A stretch of 64,000 nt of DNA from Rugalucina vietnamica. Taxonomy: Eukaryota; Mollusca; Bivalvia; Lucinida; Lucinidae. The position numbers and the translations under genes were made by a program. Numbering within the stretch: position 1 is the stretch's first letter; each line of letters opens with the position of its first letter. Location of the stretch: assembly GCA_964017185.1 (NCBI GenBank), contig OZ024876.1, positions 11,843,726 to 11,907,725 on the forward strand, read 5' to 3'. Under the pieces are notes generated by a model. It ran no database searches. It saw nothing but the letters and a program-made list of their open reading frames with translations, and was not told where the DNA came from. Below are positions 4,187 through 63,330 of this stretch, one piece after another.

Positions 4187-7100
4187 TTTTAAATACAAAT
4201 TTTATTCGAAAACACGCCAATACAATATACATCTTTTATTCAGATGTAAACGTGAAAATTTTAAATTGAAATTTTGATATTTTTATTATTCTTAGACTGT
4301 GCCTACCATCTATGTTTAAGAGCAAAAATAAGAATAGGAATAAGAAGAAAATGCCAGTATATAGGCGCAAGTGTCGGTGAAGGCCATAATGCAACTCTGC
4401 AAAAGAGCTATGTTGAAATAAAAATAGGTCAAAATATAAAATTTCGTTGCATTGTGGTGTTACAAGTTGCCGTACTGTCTTTTAAGATAATTTACAAGTT
4501 GCCGTACACCAAACTGCTAAATCGCCGTACTCTTGTTTTGGACAAAAACCCTATTAAATCTATACTATGCAAAATAAATTTAGCAATTTTCATTACAGCT
4601 GCCAGACTCTGCACATAATGGATGAAAATTATTTTTTTAATAAAGGCATAACTGGCAACCCTTCTACAAGATCTTGCAACCAAACTCTTTCGAAAAAATC
4701 AAACGTTACAGCGATACTGACGTGACGTCAGAATTAAAGACTCACGATCAAAATTGACAGGTCTGCTTTAAGTGGGAAACCGACATCATGCTTTAGCAAC
4801 TGTTTAGTCATCAATACAAAGGAAAAACAAAACAACGTTTTGAAACGAAATTTTATCGTCGAGAAATAAAGATCCAAAATTTTTGAATTTAATGTTTTCT
4901 CTGGCTCCTTCATTATCGCCTTACAGTTACGTTTCTAAGTGGAATTTCCTGAAAATAAAAACGGCATTGAGTTTAATTGCCTGGTGCACACCAATGTGAT
5001 AAGATAAAGTGGTTTTGCAAAATTCCCTTTCGTGGCTTCAAAACGTAAGCTAACAGAATGCGTTAAACGTCAGCGTTATCTCACTAGGATGACGCGTTAT
5101 GACTCAAAAACTTACCAGTTTTACTCGTCACAGTATCGGCTACATTCTATTTTGTTTGTCTTGTTTTGTTGTTCAGAAATCCATGGAAACCAAGAAACCA
5201 GAAATTAAGACACCTTCGACCACATGACGTCATCTTGACGTCATTCTTTCGGCGGGTAAAGTTTGTACCACCAAAGCCCAATCTCATTTGTCACATAATC
5301 AACATCGTTGATAACGAAGAGATGAAAAAGAAGGGAAACAGATGGAATAAACAAAAGTCAGTTGTTTGCATTGTGTTTAATGGTTGTGAATTTGGCCTTC
5401 ACACCCCTTCTGTATTTCTTGGTTGTTCCAAAAGCCTCTTTAAAGGATGGCGTTTAATTCATCGTATCATGTGCCTAAGACCCTGTTCTTGTCACTTAAA
5501 TGAAAGAAATATCCATATTTGCTCTAACATGAGAAAAAATATATGAACCATCAAAAATTGCTAAATATATTTTGCATAGTATATGTCGTCGGAAACGAAA
5601 CTTTTACTAAGGACGAATTATAATGCCCTAAATATTTTGACACCAAAAACGAAGGGCAAAAGGCTTTTTAAACATGCAAATCGAACACATTTCGGTGGGG
5701 CATTGTGTTTTGGGCGGTACCAGGTCGCACCATTTCAGTCCGGTTTGCTACCTACAGCAACAATTGTTGAGTGAGCGAACCATGGACAACAGCTAAACAT
5801 CTCTAGAAACGAACTCTATAGGTTTAAAAGGAAGATACTCATCAAAACCCATTGAATAAAACGGTATACTTACACCACTCAGAGCCATGTCTTTGCGTTG
5901 TATCGATTCACCTGGTACCAAGTTCCGGAGTTAATGATACACGGTGAAGGTCATCTCAATGTCATGATTTATATAAACTTAGTAGAGCTCTACTGCCTGA
6001 AGTTTCATGCCAGGTTTAAAAATCATAGGCCTTCTGGTTCTGGAGAAGTTATAGCAATGGCGGCCATCTTAGTTATATGACCTGAACCATTAATATAAAC
6101 CTTCATTCTCCCATCCTAAGAATGCTCCAAGCGGTTTGTGAAAAGAAGATCTTTGAATATTATGGAAATGTACATGTATATTTCCCCGGGGTGGGGGGCA
6201 AACCTGCTGCTGGGGTCCATTTTTTCTTCAGAATCATAAATCTTCAATCCATTGGTCCTTTTCCCTTCAAATGACATTTTGACAATTTTCCCCGTTCAAA
6301 TGCATTGACGACCTATGTTGCCCTTGCCGTAAAATAGGTCAAGGTCATTCCAGGGTCATGGTTTATGGCGGCCATCTTGGTCATGTTAATTAACCATTTA
6401 CATAAACTTTTTCCCTTCCTAGGAATGCTCCATTTGAAGTTTGGCCTTGATTTGCCAAGCGATTTCAGAGAAGAAGAGCTTTGAATACTATTATGGTATT
6501 ATACATGTAAATTACCCCGGGATAGGGACAAACCTGCCCCTGGGGTCCAATGTTTTTCAGAATCATAAATATTCAGTCCATTGACCCATTTCCATAAAGT
6601 TTTTCCCTTCAAATGACATTTTGACAATTTTCCCCATTCAAATGCATGGGCGACCTATGTTGACCTTGCAGTAAAAGAGGTCAAGGTCATCACAGGGTCA
6701 TGATTTATATAAATTTCATAGAGCTCCTCCCACTGATGTTTCATGCCAAGATCCAAAATCATAGGCCTTCTGGTTCTGGAGAAGAAGATTTTAAAATGTT
6801 TTTGCTATTTATAGCCATGGCGGCCATCTTGGTCATGTGACCTTGTCCATTTATATAAAAACTTTCATTCTCCCTTCCTAAGAATGCTCTACATGAAGTT
6901 TGGCTTTGATTGGCCCAGCGGTTTCAGAGAAGAAGAGCTTTGAATATTATGGTAATATACATGTATATTGCCCCGGGATAGGGGCAAACCTGCCCCTGGG
7001 GTCCAATGTTTTTTCAGAATCATAAATCTTCAGTCCATTTGCCCTTTCCCATAAAGTTATCCCCTTCAAATGACATTTTGACAATTTTCCCCATTCAAAT

Positions 7101-7806: not shown

Positions 7807-8670
7807 ACTACACAATAAAATCTGGCTTTGATTGGTCGAGCAGTCGAGAAAATTAAGTTTTACATTTAATTTTAAAAATGACCTTTGGCCAAGATCAAAA
7901 AATGACCTTGACCTTTAATACTCACACATTTCATTAGCTCAACATGTTGTCTGTATATACCAACTTTCAGGTCACAGGCTCCAAAACTTCCTGAAAAATT
8001 CAATGTTACACTTTTTTTCCCATTGAAACCCCTATGTAATCAAAATTGACATTGCCATAAAATAGGTCAAGGACAACACAAGGTCATGCATTATATAAAC
8101 TATGATGGACCAGAGTCCCATTGCTACATGACAAGTTTCGTTGAAATCGGTTCACCGGTTCCAGAGGAAGATTTTTTTATGGTTTTTACCATATATGGAC
8201 ATGGCGGCCATCTTGGTCATGTGACCTAGACCATTTATACCCTTCCTAAGGATGCTCCACATGAAGTTTGACTTTGATTGGCCAAGCGGTTTTAGAGGAA
8301 AAGATCGTTAAAATTGTGGACGACGGACAGTCGACGGACAGACGGAGCATGGCTATCCTATAAGCTCAACTTGTGAGCCTTCGGCTCAGGTGAGTTAAAA
8401 TCACATAACTCATCCGCACATTTTGGCCAAGTACTTGCTACAGTAGTTATATTACGAAATAACAATATCAAAATCGTAAAATCGAGCTTGACAGTGTTTG
8501 AGACTAGCCCATAACATTGAAAATATCCGTAAGTTTTACAAATGAAAGACTGCTACAAATTTTCCTGTTAGTTTGGTTGCCATCTCATCAGGATAACATG
8601 TCCGTAAAAAAATACCCCCATATACCCCACTTTTAGACAGTAAAACTGGGATTTACATGGATATACCTAT

Positions 8671-27208: not shown

Positions 27209-28444
27209 CTAGTAAAGAGCAGACGGGTTCTCGTTTCCCGACTCCTGTCCATTAGAAGCTTGAAACTCATCTATGCATTTCTTATAAACTGGACAGTCTT
27301 GAAGAAAGTGCTGAGGAGATTGGCAAATAAAACCTACACCTCGGCGGACAGTTTGCCTACGGGAACTGTCTTTTGCACCATTAGACTGTAGACAACGTTC
27401 TATTATCTCCAGGCGTTCAAGTATTTGATTGAGAATAGGCTCGTTGGTATCCTGGGCTTGCGATCTGTCGTTTGATTTGGACTTGTTATTGTTCCGGTTC
27501 TGGTGATACCTACTATAGTTGGAAGGTCCCAAATCAGCTGTGTCGTTGGTAGCTCGAACAATGTTCTTCTTCTCTGTGCCTTCTCCAAGTATAGCTCCAT
27601 ATCTCTCTACAATCTCTTCTGCAGACTCAATAGTTCGACAGCCCCGATCAATGCATCGGCATTTCATCTCGAGTGTGATAGCTTTGTAAAACAGGTGTAA
27701 GGCAAGAGACTCCTGTGCATCTGTCCCTAAATCTGGATAAGCACGCTGGGCTAGAAGTCTCAGGTCATTTACTAGGGAGGCGATCGTCTCGGCTGATCCG
27801 CTCTCACTGGTCTCAAATTTCGTCAGGTATCGACTCTGTTGACGAACACTGCCGAACCTTTCACTCAATTTCTGGACAAGTCTGTGGTAGGAACTTTGAT
27901 CTTCTGGACTAAGTCCTAAGTTGAAAGCTCTGGCTTGACTCTTCAAGCACGCCGGTAGAATCAACTGTTTATGTGTTTCTGACCAATGCCCAAAGTCCGC
28001 ACAGTTCTGGAAGTAGGCGATATACTGGTCCCAGTCATCTTCACCGTTGTAGAACTCTGGCTTCACCTGCACGCGTCGATGCTGTTGGACTGTGGCCTTC
28101 GGCACTGGCTTAATGTAGCGCTGTGGGTAGAACCTAGCTCCGGCTGATCTGCTTCTGACATGGTCACCGGCCTCATGGCGTCTATCCGGGCTTCGGTTGG
28201 AGTACATGGAAGCAAACATCTCATTAGGTCGATCTCTGGCCCTCTGGTCACGTACTACCTGTGGCTCAGGCACAAGAGCGGGGATAGGGGAAGGAAGTGG
28301 GGATTCTCTTCGGGGAACGTCATCAGGGTCGTAAAGGTTCAGCCTCGGCACTGAACTTAGTTGGATCATATCTCCCTGTCCTTCCTCATCTACGTCATTA
28401 GCGATGTTGAAATGAATTTCACTGTCACTGTCTGTATCAGCCAT
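27209..28444 (-). CDS. gag: Gag-like polyprotein of the LTR retrotransposon
   Basis: This 411-codon frame starts at the first ATG about 160 bp downstream of the primer-binding site. It is the structural protein of a Gypsy-class element and would assemble virus-like particles. Residues 1-120 are acidic and proline-rich. Roughly 130-290 form a capsid-like region, starting KPEFYNGEDDWDQYIAYFQN and including an RFGSVRQQSRYLTKFET segment. A basic, asparagine-rich linker follows. The C-terminal zinc-knuckle remnant is CQSPQHFLQDC. Its first cysteine position reads Gly, so the CCHC knuckle is degenerate. The frame is intact, while pol downstream is deleted. Conservation of gag without pol suggests either a recent deletion or mobilisation in trans. 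Confidence 0.85.
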   Translation of the reverse strand: MADTDSDSEIHFNIANDVDEEGQGDMIQLSSVPRLNLYDPDDVPRRESPLPSPIPALVPEPQVVRDQRARDRPNEMFASMYSNRSPDRRHEAGDHVRSRSAGARFYPQRYIKPVPKATVQQHRRVQVKPEFYNGEDDWDQYIAYFQNCADFGHWSETHKQLILPACLKSQARAFNLGLSPEDQSSYHRLVQKLSERFGSVRQQSRYLTKFETSESGSAETIASLVNDLRLLAQRAYPDLGTDAQESLALHLFYKAITLEMKCRCIDRGCRTIESAEEIVERYGAILGEGTEKKNIVRATNDTADLGPSNYSRYHQNRNNNKSKSNDRSQAQDTNEPILNQILERLEIIERCLQSNGAKDSSRRQTVRRGVGFICQSPQHFLQDCPVYKKCIDEFQASNGQESGNENPSALY

Positions 28445-39099: not shown

Positions 39100-39581
39100 T
39101 GCGTTTGATGTCAGACTTCAAAATGAACGAACACCTTTTTTCATTCTGACGAGTAATGCAGGAGTTATGCCGTATAAGGGAAGGTAAAGGTAGGCATGAT
39201 CAGGAAATGGCGCAACCGGAAATAAATTCCCACTCTAGCAGCCGAGGCGGGAAAATACTAAATTAACAATCAGAAGCTTATACTAAGAAAACAATTCGTA
39301 GCCCGAGTGAGCAGCTATTTTCCCAATAGGTGGCCACTCAGTTACCCAAACTTAACTAAAACAAAGTCTATAAAGTATAATGGTTTTTCTGAACTGAAAA
39401 TTCCTATAAATTTCATCAAGTCACCATGGAATTCTGGTTCCGAGAGGCCTCTTTAATCCAACATTAAATTTGGAAATCAATTTATTGTGTTTACGATAAA
39501 ATTTAGAAAATGTTTGTCGAAGTTATACCGATAGCCCAGTTGGAGGAAACAAATTCATTTGCAATAGACATGCTTAAAGTG

Positions 39582-39629
<48 letters not shown>

Positions 39630-39800
39630 AACAACAACAACAACAAAAAAACAAAAAAAACATGCAACGCGCAATCACAAACTGTAAAGCAATGGCACGA
39701 TTTTAATTGGCCATAAAACTCCGATCAGAATCGCTGTGAAACGCTAAGCAGTTAACTCAGACACGAAATAAAATTCGAGTTATATCGCCCTATAAATTAA
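39100..39800. other. Intron with a family E-like fragment and poly-A tract
   Basis: GCATGATCAGGAAATGGCGC...GCCGAGGCGGGAAAA at 39195-39255 resembles a fragment also present near 35405-35470 and 63640-63690. An A run of about 46 nt followed by ACA repeats is at 39582-39645. No gene is seen. Confidence 0.6.
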
Positions 39801-40603
39801 ACACATATGGATTGTATATGGCAAGCCGTTTTACTATTTATTATGCTTATTAGATATCTTGAATAGTAAATAAGATATCTTAATTAGGATATAAGATATC
39901 TCATTTAGCAATAAAGATATCTTCTTTATCAAAAAAGATATCTTATATCCTGAATTAAATATCTTATATAGTAAAGAAGATATCTAATATGCTAAATAAG
40001 ATATCTTATTTGATCCCACAATTAAGATATCTTATATAGCATATAAGATATCTTATTTGATAATTTAGATATCTAATATACTAAATAAGATATCTTATAT
40101 ACTAAATAAGATATCTAATATACCTAAATAAGACATCTTCTTTACAAGATTAATTAAGATATCTACTTTGGTATATAAGATATCTTCATTGCTAAACTAG
40201 ATATCTTAATTAGCAAATAAAATATCTAAATTGGTAATTAAGATATCTTATTTATAGTGGTAAATAAGATATCTTATTTAGGTATAATAAATATCTTATT
40301 TAATACATATGATATCTCATTTAGTATATTAGATATCTAAATTATCAAATAAGATATCTTGATTAAGGCTATAAATAAGATATATCTGTATTGGTATAGT
40401 TGATATCTTTTATAAGTATCAGAAACCAATTGTGATTGGGTAAAACAAATAAGATATCTTATATATTAGATAAGATATCTGATTGGTTAAACCTAAATAA
40501 GATATCTAATATAGGATATAAGATATCTATTTTTAGCTCGACTGCACGAAGTGCATAGAGCTATTGCAGTCACCCCGGTCGTCCACGTTCGTCACACTTG
40601 CGT

Positions 40604-41290
40604 TAAAGTTTTCTAGAAGTCCATATCTTGACAACCACTCATCAGAAAGCATTCATACTTGGACCATAGATACCCTGTAGGGTTAGCTTTCATTCCATGG
40701 CATCGGACCCCTGGGTCCAGGCCTGGGGGTGGGGCTGGAGGTTAAAATCTAGAACACCTTAAAAATAGCTATTATTGTGTTAAAGTTTTCTAGAAGTCCA
40801 TATCTTGTCAACCACTCATCAGAAAGCATTGATAATTGGGCCATTGACACCCTGTAGGGTCGGCTTTCATTCCATAGCATCAGGTCCCTGGGTCCATGCC
40901 AGGGGGAGGGGCTAGAGGTTAAAATCTAGAACACCATTAATAATAATGGCTTTTCTTTGATATTGTTTTCTAGAAGTCTGTATGTTGAAAAAATTTTATC
41001 AGAGGGCTTCCATACTGGGACCATAGGTACCCTGTAGGGTTGAGTTTCATTTCATGGCATCGGATCTCTGGGTCCATGCCTGGGGGGTGGGGCTGGAGGT
41101 TAAAAACTAGAACACTGTAAAAAATAGATGTACTACTGTGTAACTTTTACAAGGAGTCCATATCTTGACAACAACTTATCATAAAGCATTCATACTTCGT
41201 ACACTTTAGGTTCCATGGCATCCGACCGGGTCGGAGTCAGGGGGCGGGGCTAGAGGTCAAAATCTAGAACACCGATTTTTTTTTCTTTTT
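40604..41290 (+). repeat. Tandem array, about 180 bp x 4
   Basis: Units carry TTCTAGAAGTCCATATCTTG, TACCCTGTAGGGTT, CATGGCATCGGACC, GGGTCCATGCC, GGGGCTGGAGGTTAAAA and TCTAGAACACC. Starts are near 40610, 40790, 40968 and 41148. Confidence 0.85.
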
Positions 41291-41389
41291 TTTTTTTTTT
41301 TCTTAATAGAAACAACTTAGGAAGATGGTTGGTCATTCATCTTTTGACTTTTTGACACTGTCTTGTGTGTCACGACGGTAAGGGTCGGT

Positions 41390-42690
41390 TGACCTACTTT
41401 CCATGGTTCAGTGATTTTGCCTTATATGTTGACACTCAATTAGTATATTTTCTTACTTCTTTCAGATTATGGGTGAGTACGACCAGGCCTTTGACCCCAA
41501 TATACTTATAGGTCACTGTGACCTAATTTCACGGTTCAGTGATTTTGCCTTATATCTCGGTACTCAAATGGTTTATGAACAAACTTCTTTCAAAGTATGT
41601 TTGCTTATGACAAGACCTTTCACCCTGAAGTAGTCCTAGGTCACTGTGACCTAATTTCAAGGTTCAGTGATTTTGCCTCATATCTTGACACTCAATTAGT
41701 ATATTTTCATACTTTTTCAGATTATGAGTGAGTATGACCAGACCTTTGACCCCAATATACTTATAGGTCACTGTGACCTAATTTCACGGTTCAGTGATTT
41801 TGCCTTATATCTCGGTACTCAAATGGTTTATGAACAAACTTCTTTCAAAGTATGTTTGCGTATGACAAGACCTTTGACCCTGAAGTAGTCCTAGGTCACT
41901 ATGACCTAATTTCACGGTTCAGTGATTTTGCCTTATATCTTGACACTCAATTAGTATATTTTCATACTTTTTTCAGATTATGAGTGATATGACCAGACCT
42001 TTGACCCCAATATACTTATAGGTCATTGTGACCTAATTTCATGGTTCAGAAACTTTGCCTTATATCTCAGCACTCAAGTGGTTTATGAACAAACTTCGTT
42101 CACACTATGTTTGCGTATGACAAGACCTTTGACCCTAAAGTAGTCCTAGGTCAATATGACATGATTTCACGGTTCAGTGATTTTCCTTTATATCTCGGCA
42201 CTCAATTGGCATATGGACATACTGCTTTCACGATATGTATGAGTATGACAAGACCTTTGACCGTAAAGTATTCCTGGGTCACTGTGACTTAATTTCATGG
42301 TTCAGTGATTTTGCCTTATATCTCGACACTCAGTTGGTATTTTTTCATACTTCTTTCTGATTATGAATGAGTATGACCAGACCATTAACCCAAACATACT
42401 TATAGGTCACTATGACCTAATTTCATGGTTCAGTGATTTTGCTTTATATCTCAACACTAAATGGGTATATGATCATATTTCTTTCACATTATGAGTAAGT
42501 ATCACTAGACCTTTGACCCTGAAATACTTATAGGTCAGTGTGACCTTATTTCACGGTTCAGTGATTTTGCCTTGTGTCTTGGCACTCAGTTGATATATGA
42601 ACACACTTCTTTCAAAATATGAGTGAGACCTCTAAATCTTAGGTAGTTATAGTTAACTTCCATGGTTCAGTGATTTTGCCTTATTGCATC
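41390..42690 (+). repeat. Satellite array, about 127 bp x 9-10
   Basis: Units carry ACGGTTCAGTGATTTTGCCT, TATATCTCGGCACTCAAT, a TTCTTTCA box, GAGTATGACAAGACCTTTGA and AGGTCACTGTGACCTAATTT. Unit copies alternate between two subtypes (TATACTTATAGGTCA and AGTAGTCCTAGGTCA), so the higher-order period is about 255 bp in the left half. Confidence 0.88.
41510..42546. promoter_or_regulatory. Seven perfect estrogen-response-element-type sites (AGGTCA-N3-TGACCT)
   Basis: Perfect inverted half-sites with a 3-bp spacer occur at 41510-41524, 41638-41652, 41765-41779, 41893-41907, 42020-42034, 42404-42418 and 42532-42546. Imperfect versions are at 42148-42162 and 42276-42290. Three sites have the CTG spacer, which is the reverse complement of the classic vitellogenin-type AGGTCACAGTGACCT. 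Each unit also has an ACCTTTGACCC box, a DR1-like pair of half-sites. Sequence identity is certain; any receptor binding is an inference. Confidence 0.85.
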
Positions 42691-44274
42691 AAGGCAAAAA
42701 GATGTATGGGTTACTGGTCGGGTTTGGCCTTATGTTTGACAAAGGTCAGAAGCAGTCGAGCACGCTGTCCTGCGACAGCTCTTATTGTATATAAAATATC
42801 GTATTTGTCAAATAAGATATCTTCTTTAGCATAGTAGATATCTTATTTGAGAATGTAATTAAGATATCTTATATGTTGAAGAAGATATCTTATTTGACAA
42901 ATAAGATATCTTATATGATAAAATAGATATCTAATATACTATTTTATCTTATATGTTAATTAAGATATCTTATTTAGAAAAAAACATTATAGATATCTAA
43001 TTTATCATATAAGATATCTAATTTGTTAAACAAGATATCTTAATTAACAAATAAGATATCTTTAATGCTATATCAGATATCTATATTAATAATTAAGATA
43101 TCTTATATATTTTTACACATAAGTAATCTAATATATCAATCAAGATATCGTATTTGTTAATTTAGGTATCTACATTAACAAATAAGATATCTTGTTTAGT
43201 TAAAATGATATCTTATATAAGATATCTTAATTGACAATTTAGATATCTAATATAACAAAACAGATATCTTATTTGCTATATAAGAGATCTTCTTTATAAT
43301 AGATATCTAATAAAATAAAGTAGATATCTTATTTATTAAAGAAGATATCTTATATACAATATAAGATATCTGTTTGTTTGAATAAATAGTAAAACGGCTT
43401 GCCATACTTGTATCGGTTGCAATTATGGGCTCATTAATTTTGTAGTACAACTTTATACATATTTCATGAATTTTATTAAGGGTGTACAATTCAACTTTTA
43501 CAGAATATAAACACATAAACATTGCACTACACTACCGGGTCATTGCACTGTCACGCTATAGGACCCTGATCTTATGGGACGATTTTCTCGAGCAAAAAAA
43601 TGGCGGACAATCTAAAGATATTTGGATTACCTGTCCCGAACGAAGGTAAATTTAAAGACTTTTAACCATATTTCACTGTTCCTACACAGCAATTTTGGAA
43701 GAAATGTTCATTTTATCAGCCTGTAGTCTTAAATAGAACAATGATGGTTAAATTGTTCAAATCTAGTTTCCAGATACATTAGAAAGTGGTGTGCTCACCT
43801 AGTTTAGCGATGTCATACATGAGGAAAACGTCTAAAACAGAACGAAGAAAGTATCGGCCAGCTTCCTTTGAATTAGTGAATGTGATATTTAAGACAACAG
43901 ATGCTCTGGATAACTTTCGGATGTGAAAACAATATTAATTTATGAGAAAAACAACATTTTATTCCACTGTACACATACCCTTTGTTCCCAGACCAGTACA
44001 GTATTTTTCGAGCAATGTTGCATTCCACTGAACGGGTATTTCGAGAGATTTTATGCTGGTGATTCCCCTAAAACTCTGGACGGGTAGTCCGAGCGATATA
44101 ATAACAGCGAATTTAACATCACGCTGTGGACAAATAAACAGACTAGCACAATTTAGCAAAGTGTGAGGCGCTACTTTACATATACCTCTTCAGAAAACTA
44201 GCTATCAAAAAACATGTATAAACCACCTGTTTAATCATGTTAGATAGGTAAATATTTGGTCACAAGTCTCTCTT

Positions 44275-58367: not shown

Positions 58368-58430
58368 TGAGCCGTCTCGTGGGAAAACCAACAATGTGGT
58401 TTCCGAACAGGTCTGGCACAAACCTATGGG
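58368..58430 (-). mobile_element. MITE C end fragment
   Basis: ATGAGCCGTCTCGTGGGAAA then ACCAACAATGTGG and CCGAACAGGTCTGGCACAAA form the complement of the right end of the copy at 17919-18151. The rest is missing and replaced by a GATATC array. Confidence 0.7.
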
Positions 58431-58431
58431 G

Positions 58432-58925
58432 TGCCGTTTTACTATAAAATCCCGATTTTTTGATATCAGAAATTTGATTTTTTGATATCAGAAATTCGAT
58501 TTTTTTATATCAAAAAATATCATTTGATATCAGAAAATATTTTTTGTTATCAAAAAATCGATTTTTGATATCAGAAAATCGAATTTCTGATATCAGCAAA
58601 TCGAATTTCTGATATCAAAAAATCGAATTTCTGATATCAAAAATTAACTACAATTTTTTGATATCAAAAATTCGATTTTTTGATATCAGAAATTCGATTT
58701 TTGATATAAAAAAATAATCCTGTTTTTATGATATCACAAATTCGATTTTTTGATATCAAAAAATCGAATTTCTGATATCATAAAATCGAATTTCTGTTAT
58801 CAAAAAATAACTATGATTTTTTATATCACAAAATCCATTTTTTGATATCAATAATTCGATTTTGTGATATCAAAAAATGTATTTTTTGATATCAAAAATT
58901 CGATTTTGTAATATCAAAAAAAACT
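58432..58925. repeat. GATATC palindrome array with a shared terminal motif
   Basis: After TGCCGTTTTACTATAAAA the sequence is an array of units of about 20 bp such as TTTTTTGATATCAGAAATTC, each centred on GATATC, in both orientations. The GCCGTTTTACTAT lead-in equals the terminal repeat of the element at 39819-43404, so the two arrays probably belong to one superfamily. No matching right end was found. Confidence 0.75.
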
Positions 58926-61439: not shown

Positions 61440-63330
61440 TGCATATAATCTTCAGTGACCTTCTAAAGGTCATGGTCAAGGTCAAGGTCACAGAATGTTC
61501 AAGTTGATTTATGCATAATAGAGGCTCAAATTTCTTACTTTATTGAATATTTATGCATATCACAACAAAGTATTTCATGTTGAGATATTTTTTGTCCACC
61601 AGGTGACTTCAAGGTCAAGGTCAAATATCATTCAGACAATCCTCCTGCTGACCTCAAATAACCTTTTAAGGGTCAAGGTCAAAAATGCAAGAAAATGGCT
61701 TAAATTGGCATTTTCTTACCAGTATTTTGTTATGTTTCAAAGGGTGTGTTGCAAAATTTCCTTAATATTTGTTTTGAAAGCTTGAGATATGTTGTATATG
61801 AAACAAAGGTTAAGAAAATATGGCATTGAATCTACAGTGACCTTCAGAAAGTCAAGGTCAAGGTCACGTTAGAGAAAGATAACAAAAATTGGCTTTTTTT
61901 GCTCATGTTATAGTTGATTTGGCCATAATTTAGGCTCAAGCTTTTTTCCTTATTGAATATTTATGCACATCACCACGATGTTTTTCACGCTGAGATATTC
62001 TTGTCCACCAGGTGACTTCAAGGTCAAGGTCATGAAAAGGTCAATTTTTCAGGGGGTAAAATGAAGTTTTTTGTGGAAGAAGCAAACAAATTAAAGTGTT
62101 AATTTTTATCTTATTAAGCTTTTTCATTTACATATGTGTTGCTAGGTTCAATATCATTCAGACAATTCACCTGCTGGCCTTAAATTACCTTTTAAGGGTC
62201 AAGGTCAAGGTCAAAAATGTAAGAAAATGGTTTAAACGGGCATTTTCTTACCAGTATTTTGTTATTTTTCAAAGAGTTTGGTGCAAAATTGCCTAAATAT
62301 TTGTTTTGAAAGCTTGAGATATGTTGTATATGAAACAAAGGTTAAGAAAATATGGCATTGAATCTGCAGTGACCTTCGAAAAGTCAAGGTCAAGGTCACG
62401 TTAGAGAAAGATAACACAAAATTGGCTTTTGTTTGCTCATGTTATAGTTGATTTGGCCATAATTTAGGCTCAAGTATTTTTTTCCTTATTGAATATTTAT
62501 GCACATTACAACGAAGTTTTTCACGCTGAGATATATTTGTCCACCAGGTGACTTCAAGGTCAAGGTCACGAAAAGTTCAATTTTTCAGGGGGTAAAATGA
62601 AGTTTTTGGTTGAAGAAGTAAACAAATTAAAGTGTTAATTTTTATCGTATTAAGCTTTTTCATTTAAATATGTGTTGCAAAGTCCAATATCATTCAGACA
62701 ATCCACCAGCTGGCCTTAAATTACCTTTTAAGGGTCAAGGTCAAGGTCAAAAATGCAAGAAAATCGTTTAAACGGGCATTTTCATACCAGTATTTTGTTA
62801 TTTTTTCACGGAGTTTGGTGCAAAATTGCTTTAATATTTGTTAAAACGCTTGAGATATGTTGTATATGGAACAGCAGTTAAGAAAAAATGGTATTGAATA
62901 TGCAGTTACCTTCAATGGCATTGAATCTGCAGTGACCTTCTGAAACTAAATTCTTAAGGTAACAGAATCAAGAAAATGACATGAAAATGTCATTTTTGGC
63001 CAATATTCAATTTTATGCTGCAATAATTGCTCCATGACATTCGAGTTATCATGGATGATTATAAATGTTTACACAAAGTCTTTCAATCTGTGATAATTTT
63101 GTCCACCAGGTGACTTCAAAGTAAAGGTCAAGGTCTCAAAACTTTGAATTTTAGGGGGTAAAATGGAGTTTTTGTGTTAATTGTAAACACATTAAATTAT
63201 TAATTTCAATCATAGTATGCTTTTTCATTTAAATATGTGTTGCAAAGTACGATATAATTCAGACAATACACCTGTTGACCTAAAATAGCCTTTTAATGGT
63301 AAAGGTCAAGGTCAAAGATGCATGCATTTT
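61440..63330. repeat. Satellite array, about 540 bp x 3.5
   Basis: Units share CAGTGACCTTC, TCAAGGTCAAGGTCA, TTTGTCCACCAGGTGACTTC, TTTTTCAGGGGGTAAAATGA, AATATCATTCAGACAAT and CTTGAGATATGTTGTATATG. The CCACCAGGTGACTTC landmark lies near 61599, 62006, 62545 and 63104. The first unit lacks the block between the CAAGGTCAAGGTCA and ATATCATTCAGAC boxes. Confidence 0.85.

Follow-up and report, generated by a model that had tools for sequence, protein, structure and literature searches.

The closest described counterpart of the element reported here is Cg_HINE of the oyster Crassostrea gigas, which is dispersed through the genome with no chromosome preferred (PMC7492417). As far as its description was available to us, Cg_HINE has subterminal inverted repeats (subTIRs), an inverted repeat and a 3′ palindrome, inserts at T-rich sites without duplicating its target, and carries satellite-like arrays in its center, exceptionally two in a row (PMC7492417). 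For DINE-1/HINE elements of Drosophila and mites, the portion of the report available to us describes comparable end architecture, insertion at T-rich or TT sites and central repeats, and does not mention receptor sites (PMC4067079). The main text of the Cg_HINE paper uses neither "transcription factor" nor "binding site" (PMC7492417). The multiplication of a consensus nuclear receptor element by an abundant mobile element has a human precedent: according to the accessible part of the source, the human genome contains 108,582 DR2 elements, 90% of them in Alu (PMC1785376).

The sequence analyzed here is a stretch of 64,000 nucleotides from the lucinid bivalve Rugalucina vietnamica (contig OZ024876.1, positions 11,843,726 to 11,907,725; hereafter the window). 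It contains an element that shares with Cg_HINE the features listed above, and two internal arrays in succession. The two elements are likened by layout. As a difference, the array unit in R. vietnamica is 128 bp long and carries an estrogen response element (ERE) and a DR1-like site. The comparison with DINE-1/HINE, from another host, is also one of layout. An internal inverted repeat, GCAGTC, is placed as in the DINE-1/Cg_HINE layout, whereas the subTIRs are 10 bp long compared to 12–15 bp in the mite element, and lie 24 bp instead of 38–60 bp from the 3′ end. Alu-DR2 elements arose largely by CpG deamination after dispersal, as far as the source could be consulted (PMC1785376). In contrast, each HINE copy carries several inverted-repeat sites within an array, and the unit types suggest that the site was present ancestrally. 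Among 483 array units, 216 carry AGGTCACTGTGACCT, the most common form of the site and the reverse complement of AGGTCACAGTGACCT, spacer included. We take AGGTCACAGTGACCT, a sequence present in at least three papers on EREs, to be the classical vertebrate ERE; the correspondence is one of sequence. Among titles and abstract openings of the open-access literature, we found no paper on EREs or nuclear receptor sites in a Helentron or a mollusc satellite.

Results

The Carrier Element. BLAST comparison of the array region with 20 paralogous 10-kb loci (L009–L028) reveals similarity that begins near position 40530 and ends near 42786. Copies at these loci have the same termini (TTTTTAGCTCGACTGC... 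and ...GCAGTCGAGCACGCTGTCCTGCGACAGCTCTTAT). Paired ends across copies delimit a mobile element of 2,256 bp on the plus strand (40530–42785, TTTTTAGCTCGACTGC ... GACAGCTCTTAT), and all features of this element that are listed in this paragraph are given for the same strand. The 5′ subTIR GCTCGACTGC (40536–40545), 6 bp from the 5′ end, is the exact reverse complement of the 3′ subTIR GCAGTCGAGC (42752–42761). Part of the 5′ subTIR has its complement in the internal inverted repeat GCAGTC (40566–40571). Six base pairs from the 3′ end lies the hairpin GCTGTC-CTGC-GACAGC (42764–42779) with a 6-bp stem and a 4-base loop; its folding z is only −0.8, and its energy alone is not unusual. TRF identifies two internal tandem arrays, the first with a period of 177 bp and 3.4 copies (40598–41197), the second with a period of 128 bp and a 255-bp dimer register (41390–42627). 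Since the longest stop-to-stop frame in the window copy has only 67 amino acids, the element is non-coding.

In the window and L009–L028 we located 25 left ends and 24 right ends, which form 24 pairs. The search criterion was the element ends, not the adjoining T-run or AT. In all 24 pairs a run of 2–8 T precedes the 5′ end and AT follows the terminal CTCTT; in 19 of them another T follows the AT. Apart from T-runs, the flanks of these 24 occupied insertions show one 4-bp duplication and none longer. With T-runs included, the flanks match over 4, 5 and 6 bp in 4, 2 and 2 of the pairs. The flanks of different copies are mostly dissimilar. The 19 flank pairs that are alike reflect chiefly one repeat to the left of six copies. 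Long flank matches (~165–200 bp) are 77–83% identical, and all flank matches 72–100%, whereas 40 scored arrays are mostly 95–98% identical to the window array. Since the flanks are far more diverged than the elements, we consider the insertions to be independent. The diverged repeat common to the left flanks (77–83%) occurs at L009, L010, L011, L014, L015 and L019, as if the element landed preferentially in or beside one other repeat.

By its subTIRs, 3′ hairpin, T-rich insertion sites, lack of coding capacity and central arrays, the element is best classified as a HINE, that is, as a non-autonomous element of the Helentron type. A free satellite can be ruled out, as the sampled arrays lie between identical element ends. 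Rep-type Helitron domains (PF14214; 150 of 409 candidates scored) are abundant in the genome, many of them in open frames of more than 2,500 amino acids, and a mobilizing partner is therefore plausible. The element may have been mobilized in trans by Helentron proteins, the candidate frames for which are recognized by the Rep domain alone.

The HINE is nested within an outer element (39817–43406) with perfect 24-bp terminal inverted repeats (TATGGCAAGCCGTTTTACTATTTA, 39817–39840 and 43383–43406), in which arrays of GATATC-centred palindromic repeats flank the HINE on both sides. These GATATC repeats were considered as possible HINE ends and rejected, given that L009–L028 lack the terminal inverted repeats (39817/43383) and have other flanks. 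They belong to the outer element.

Elsewhere in the window, a related inverted-end sequence with five differences adjoins another GATATC palindrome array (58425–58920), and the two may represent a sibling of the outer element that lacks a HINE. The sequence TTTTTAGCTCACCT, two bases different from the HINE 5′ end, occurs at 8670, 18458 and 54561. Its neighbors are CGTC-type microsatellites (8670, 54561) or a 454-bp array (18458), and these loci are possibly other HINE families. An open frame of 411 amino acids on the minus strand (27209–28444) looks, to our eye, gag-like.

The ERE Array. The second internal array consists of 127/128-bp units, nine of which contain an ERE-type site, and partial units found by nhmmer extend it to about 42695. 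Motif searches locate an exact AGGTCANNNTGACCT (AGGTCA-N3-TGACCT, IR3) in seven of the nine units, namely AGGTCACTGTGACCT at 41510–41524 and further sites starting at 41638, 41765, 41893, 42020, 42404 and 42532. The site at 42148–42162 has one mismatch, and that at 42276–42290, at the end of the following unit, has two; all nine are read on the plus strand. The spacers of the seven exact sites are CTG (three times), CTA (twice), TTG and GTG. The exact motif count thereby confirms the number of perfect sites and the spacer variants given in a preliminary description of this DNA. With up to two mismatches, the window contains 16 ERE matches, whereas 100 shuffles average 2.2 matches and never exceed 6.

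The ERE is adjoined by a 31-bp block, AATTTCACGGTTCAGTGATTTTGCCTTATAT (first copy at 41525–41555, plus strand), which recurs once per unit and is conserved like the half-sites. On its minus strand the unit also reads GGGTCA-A-AGGT, a DR1-like pair (41742–41752). This pair had been described as part of each unit, but the exact sequence ACCTTTGACCC is present in only five of nine (41742, 41870, 41997, 42125 and 42509), and three more are one base off. Paired AGGTCA sites were found in none of 24 arrays of the family to which the 177-bp first array belongs. No relation to tRNA or Rfam families was detected at 39500–43700, and none in the window at gathering scores.

Abundance of the Site Genome-Wide. 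The genome contains 22,978 exact EREs, compared to 20 matches of the reversed control, which excludes chance as an explanation. When one mismatch is allowed, the count is 33,090, and that of the control 2,055. AGGTCA half-sites with a 4-bp spacer (IR4) number 260 (control: 25), so that the IR3 spacing is about 88-fold more common. Exact counts are 24,213 (control: 246) for the neighboring block, and 17,415 (control: 62) for the DR1-like sequence GGGTCAAAGGTC. HINE 3′ ends with up to two mismatches occur 2,789 times, the reversed control 0 times. The places listed by the genome searches are a partial and non-random selection; among 95 distinct listed sites from one chromosome, 92 have a neighbor that lies at most 1.3 kb away and deviates from the 128-bp register by no more than 8 bp. 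In the 51 sampled loci the site is intact in 383 of 483 full units, and in 303 of 383 when loci found via the ERE are left aside. The spread of one mobile element accounts for most of the ~23,000 perfect EREs. The idea that a mobile element spreads ERE-type sites is thus borne out on a very large scale (22,978 sites, 2,789 3′ ends).

Conservation of the Half-Sites. Intact half-sites next to drifting spacers had been read as a sign of constraint. We compared the 15-bp site with the rest of the unit in the 51 sampled loci. Hits of nhmmer were retained if they covered at least 110 of the 128 positions, which left 483 of 594 rows and zero full units at L039, L055, L057 and L059. Loci L029–L042 were found via the ERE and may be biased toward intact half-sites; ratios are therefore given with and without them. 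New alleles were counted in the seven unit types with at least eight members (445 of 483 units, 51 loci), where an allele counts as new if it differs within its unit type and is not common in any unit type. The half-sites contain 27 new alleles in 5,273 cells and the 70 columns of the remainder 149 in 31,109 (ratio 1.07, 95% CI 0.68–1.62). Without the ERE-found loci the counts are 23 in 4,168 and 124 in 24,609 (ratio 1.10, CI 0.67–1.72). Adjusted for base, the ratios are 1.02 to 1.08. The half-sites mutate at the rate of the rest of the unit, and in the dispersed copies examined there is no detectable constraint on them, within a confidence interval that still allows a reduction by up to about one third. 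The spacer apparently mutates faster (ratio 1.5 to 1.6 after the allele filter, from 9–10 events). Sorted by divergence class, the ratios of half-sites to other columns are 0.82, 1.14 and 1.18, each with wide intervals, and a further value of 4.3 (CI 0.4–21.5) comes from a single unit.

Cruder counts had given lower values. The first one yielded a ratio of half-sites to rest of 0.58, and of 0.62 and 0.75 against other backgrounds; with more loci and alleles at no more than 20%, the ratio was 0.67–0.79, and 0.80–0.96 for singletons. All these counts include alleles that are the normal base of another unit type and that pass for mutations in the variable remainder. Once alleles common in another unit type are set aside, the depletion disappears. 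Constraint as deduced from the ratio of 0.58 is therefore rejected as an effect of mixed unit types and conversion.

The conservation that is visible in the array is older. In the first 329 units, column conservation is 97.9% for the half-sites, 82.3% for the spacer and 88.2% for all other columns. By this measure the ERE template ranks fourth of 114 placements, and the top three lie in the adjacent block. The seven common unit types differ from each other at 2 of the 12 half-site columns, 2 of the 3 spacer columns, 5 of the 31 columns of the adjacent block, 3 of the 12 columns of the DR1-like stretch and 37 of the 70 remaining columns. Compared with this remainder the half-sites vary less (2/12 vs 37/70, p = 0.028), and constraint at the time when the array formed is therefore possible. 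They do not differ from the adjacent block (2/12 vs 5/31, Fisher p = 1), and 26 of 128 template placements, the ERE among them, are equally or more invariant. Since the adjacent 31 bases are just as invariant, we describe the conserved part as a 46-bp block with the ERE at one end. The earlier case for constraint thus does not hold: the dispersed copies give the very outcome that the preliminary description had named as its refutation and lend no support to half-site conservation as a sign of function, and the older conservation extends over 31 bases beyond the site.

A Matching Receptor. The genome gives 75 matches to the zinc-finger C4 (zf-C4) domain. With the human ER-alpha DBD as a query, we found two neighboring pieces on C4 with 79–80% identity, which we read as two exons. 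They translate as LCQVCSDNASGFHYGVWSCEGCKAFF... and ...YVCPATNTCTIDKHRRKSCQACRLRKCYEVGM, and contain CEGCKAFF; another locus translates to CEACKAFF. We take these P-boxes to be of the ER type and the ERR type, respectively. At C4:30355688–30356251 and in its vicinity, the initial part of zf-C4 is matched over and over by short stretches spaced 82 bp apart, a run that resembles a tandemly duplicated exon fragment.

The preliminary description also held that mollusc estrogen receptors bind such elements without hormone. As far as the source could be consulted, this is correct for the ER of the mollusc Marisa, the DBD of which binds the core ERE GGTCAnnnTGACC without ligand; for the ERR of this mollusc the same paper states no apparent binding, with the data not shown (PMC3778743). 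The array sites can probably bind receptor, and we infer that a host receptor of the ER type could occupy them where chromatin allows.

AGGTCA Dimers in Other Arrays. The genome holds 136,183 copies of a second dimer, AGGTCAAGGTCA, compared to 122 of the reversed control. It is a direct repeat without a spacer, and we take it to represent the extended half-site type of ERR/SF-1. Outside the element, the window holds 36 occurrences of TCAAGGTCA, against a Markov mean of 0.3, and 22 of AGGTCAAGGTCA (mean 0.0), the latter for example at 6336, 6678, 9173, 53290, 53746 and 61479–62738. About one AGGTCAAGGTCA per unit is present in several types of array between which no other similarity was detected. 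We compared seven loci, picked for holding AGGTCAAGGTCA, with each other and with eight stretches of the window. They comprise arrays of 146, 151, 168, 354 and 466 bp and stretches that do not score as arrays. Among these loci and window stretches no similarity outside AGGTCA was found at E 1e-3, with two exceptions: two loci of the 168-bp type, and a group around the ~455/466-bp arrays.

A further set of arrays was assembled independently of the motif (window and L009–L028; 78 arrays in 15 families). In four of the 15 families at least one array has 0.5 or more dimers per unit, whereas no family does so for any of 40 permuted half-sites. In the same sample, outside the element family, TCAAGGTCA is present in 36 of 133 2-kb blocks, which places it third among 67,003 complex 9-mers. 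As far as the source was available, the oyster genome is reported to have ER, ERR and two NR5 receptors and no NR6 (PMC4070562), so that NR5A or ERR would be natural candidates for a receptor of the AGGTCAAGGTCA sites.

Discussion

We favor the interpretation, with a probability of roughly 70%, that the ERE array is hitch-hiking cargo, that is, an internal tandem repeat of a young HINE that was dispersed in a burst of rolling-circle transposition. Its starting point is direct observation of the element ends, the nesting, the copy number, the near-identity of sampled copies, the site counts and the lack of detectable half-site constraint in dispersed copies. The ancestral 128-bp unit would already have contained the ERE (IR3) within the conserved 46-bp block, and the array would have grown by duplication of units and dimers. 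Rolling-circle transposition, possibly with Rep/helicase proteins of full-length relatives, would then have carried the element to ~2,800 places and multiplied the ERE to most of its ~23,000 perfect copies. Any effects on gene expression or receptor titration would be by-products of the burst, with no selected function for the individual copy.

Three other explanations concern the ERE array itself. The 46-bp block could serve the structure or recombination of the array and, much like a CENP-B-box-like segment, favor unequal exchange or array maintenance; its resemblance to an ERE would then be accidental. Equal conservation well past the ERE is consistent with this idea, as is the ability of the site to form a hairpin as a single strand (z −4.6). 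Conserved segments in common have also been reported for monomers of related oyster HINEs, according to the part of the source available (PMC7492417). Yet AGGTCA halves at the exact IR3 spacing match a nuclear receptor site, and most units contain a second, DR1-like receptor site. Among 2,809 pair cells of the palindrome, 93 are changed on one side and none on both, and with zero compensatory changes its preservation by base pairing is rejected. We consider a structural motif rather unlikely. Selection could instead act on receptor binding. The sites might form a sponge that titrates the host ER to the benefit of host or element, or single copies might be kept by natural selection as host enhancers. 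In favor of a sponge are the 22,978 perfect sites of the assembly, an ER-type DBD in the genome, and binding of the element by a mollusc ER in the absence of ligand, as the accessible text reports (PMC3778743). Alu DR2 elements that recruit RAR in vivo are a precedent for enhancers, as far as that source goes (PMC1785376). Both proposals conflict with the behavior of the half-sites, which are unprotected after dispersal. Because the average constraint on them does not differ from zero within error, only a minority of copies, if any, could be maintained as enhancers. Selected enhancers are therefore very unlikely as an explanation of the array, and a selected sponge is, if anything, slightly more improbable still.

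A single neutral burst does not account for the AGGTCA dimers that recur in other arrays. A germline receptor of the ER, ERR or NR5A type could open or transcribe the carriers of such dimers, so that dimers would be favored recurrently in unrelated arrays. The abundance of AGGTCAAGGTCA (136,183 vs 122 in the control) argues for this mechanism, and so do the four of 15 families in which some array reaches 0.5 or more AGGTCA dimers per unit (three of 14 in an earlier grouping), the 0 of 15 families for each of the 40 permuted half-sites, and the third place of TCAAGGTCA among 67,003 complex 9-mers ranked by how widely they occur in the sample outside the element family. However, one of the four families is the very ERE array by which the sample was defined, only six of ten arrays qualify in the ~455-bp family, and 11 of 15 families are devoid of dimers. 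A very old common origin of the motif, or duplication of the hexamer, could also account for the pattern. On balance we regard the germline-receptor mechanism as distinctly unlikely. We are equally doubtful about the broader proposal that arrays of unrelated mobile elements have repeatedly gained about one receptor dimer per unit, and that the receptor is a host factor exploited for germline accessibility or transcription. The arrays concerned would be the 128-bp HINE array with IR3 and those with AGGTCAAGGTCA in units of 112, 146, 151, 168, 354 and ~455 bp, along with AGGTCAAGGTCA-bearing stretches that are not scored as tandem, a situation that can be likened to the CENP-B box common to some centromeric satellites.

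Conclusions

What makes the array interesting is its scale, together with a matching receptor in the same genome and the richness of other arrays in receptor sites. ERE scans, ER ChIP experiments and reporter designs in this species would be dominated by one mobile element. The same circumstance provides a natural experiment, since thousands of near-identical arrays in many contexts could be examined for ER binding, accessibility and titration. The abundance of AGGTCAAGGTCA may be a bigger story than the ERE array. The more common occurrence of this dimer in other arrays makes convergence of transposons on host receptors a testable idea. If this idea is true, ~150,000 consensus receptor sites would both drive the spread of the elements and buffer the receptor.
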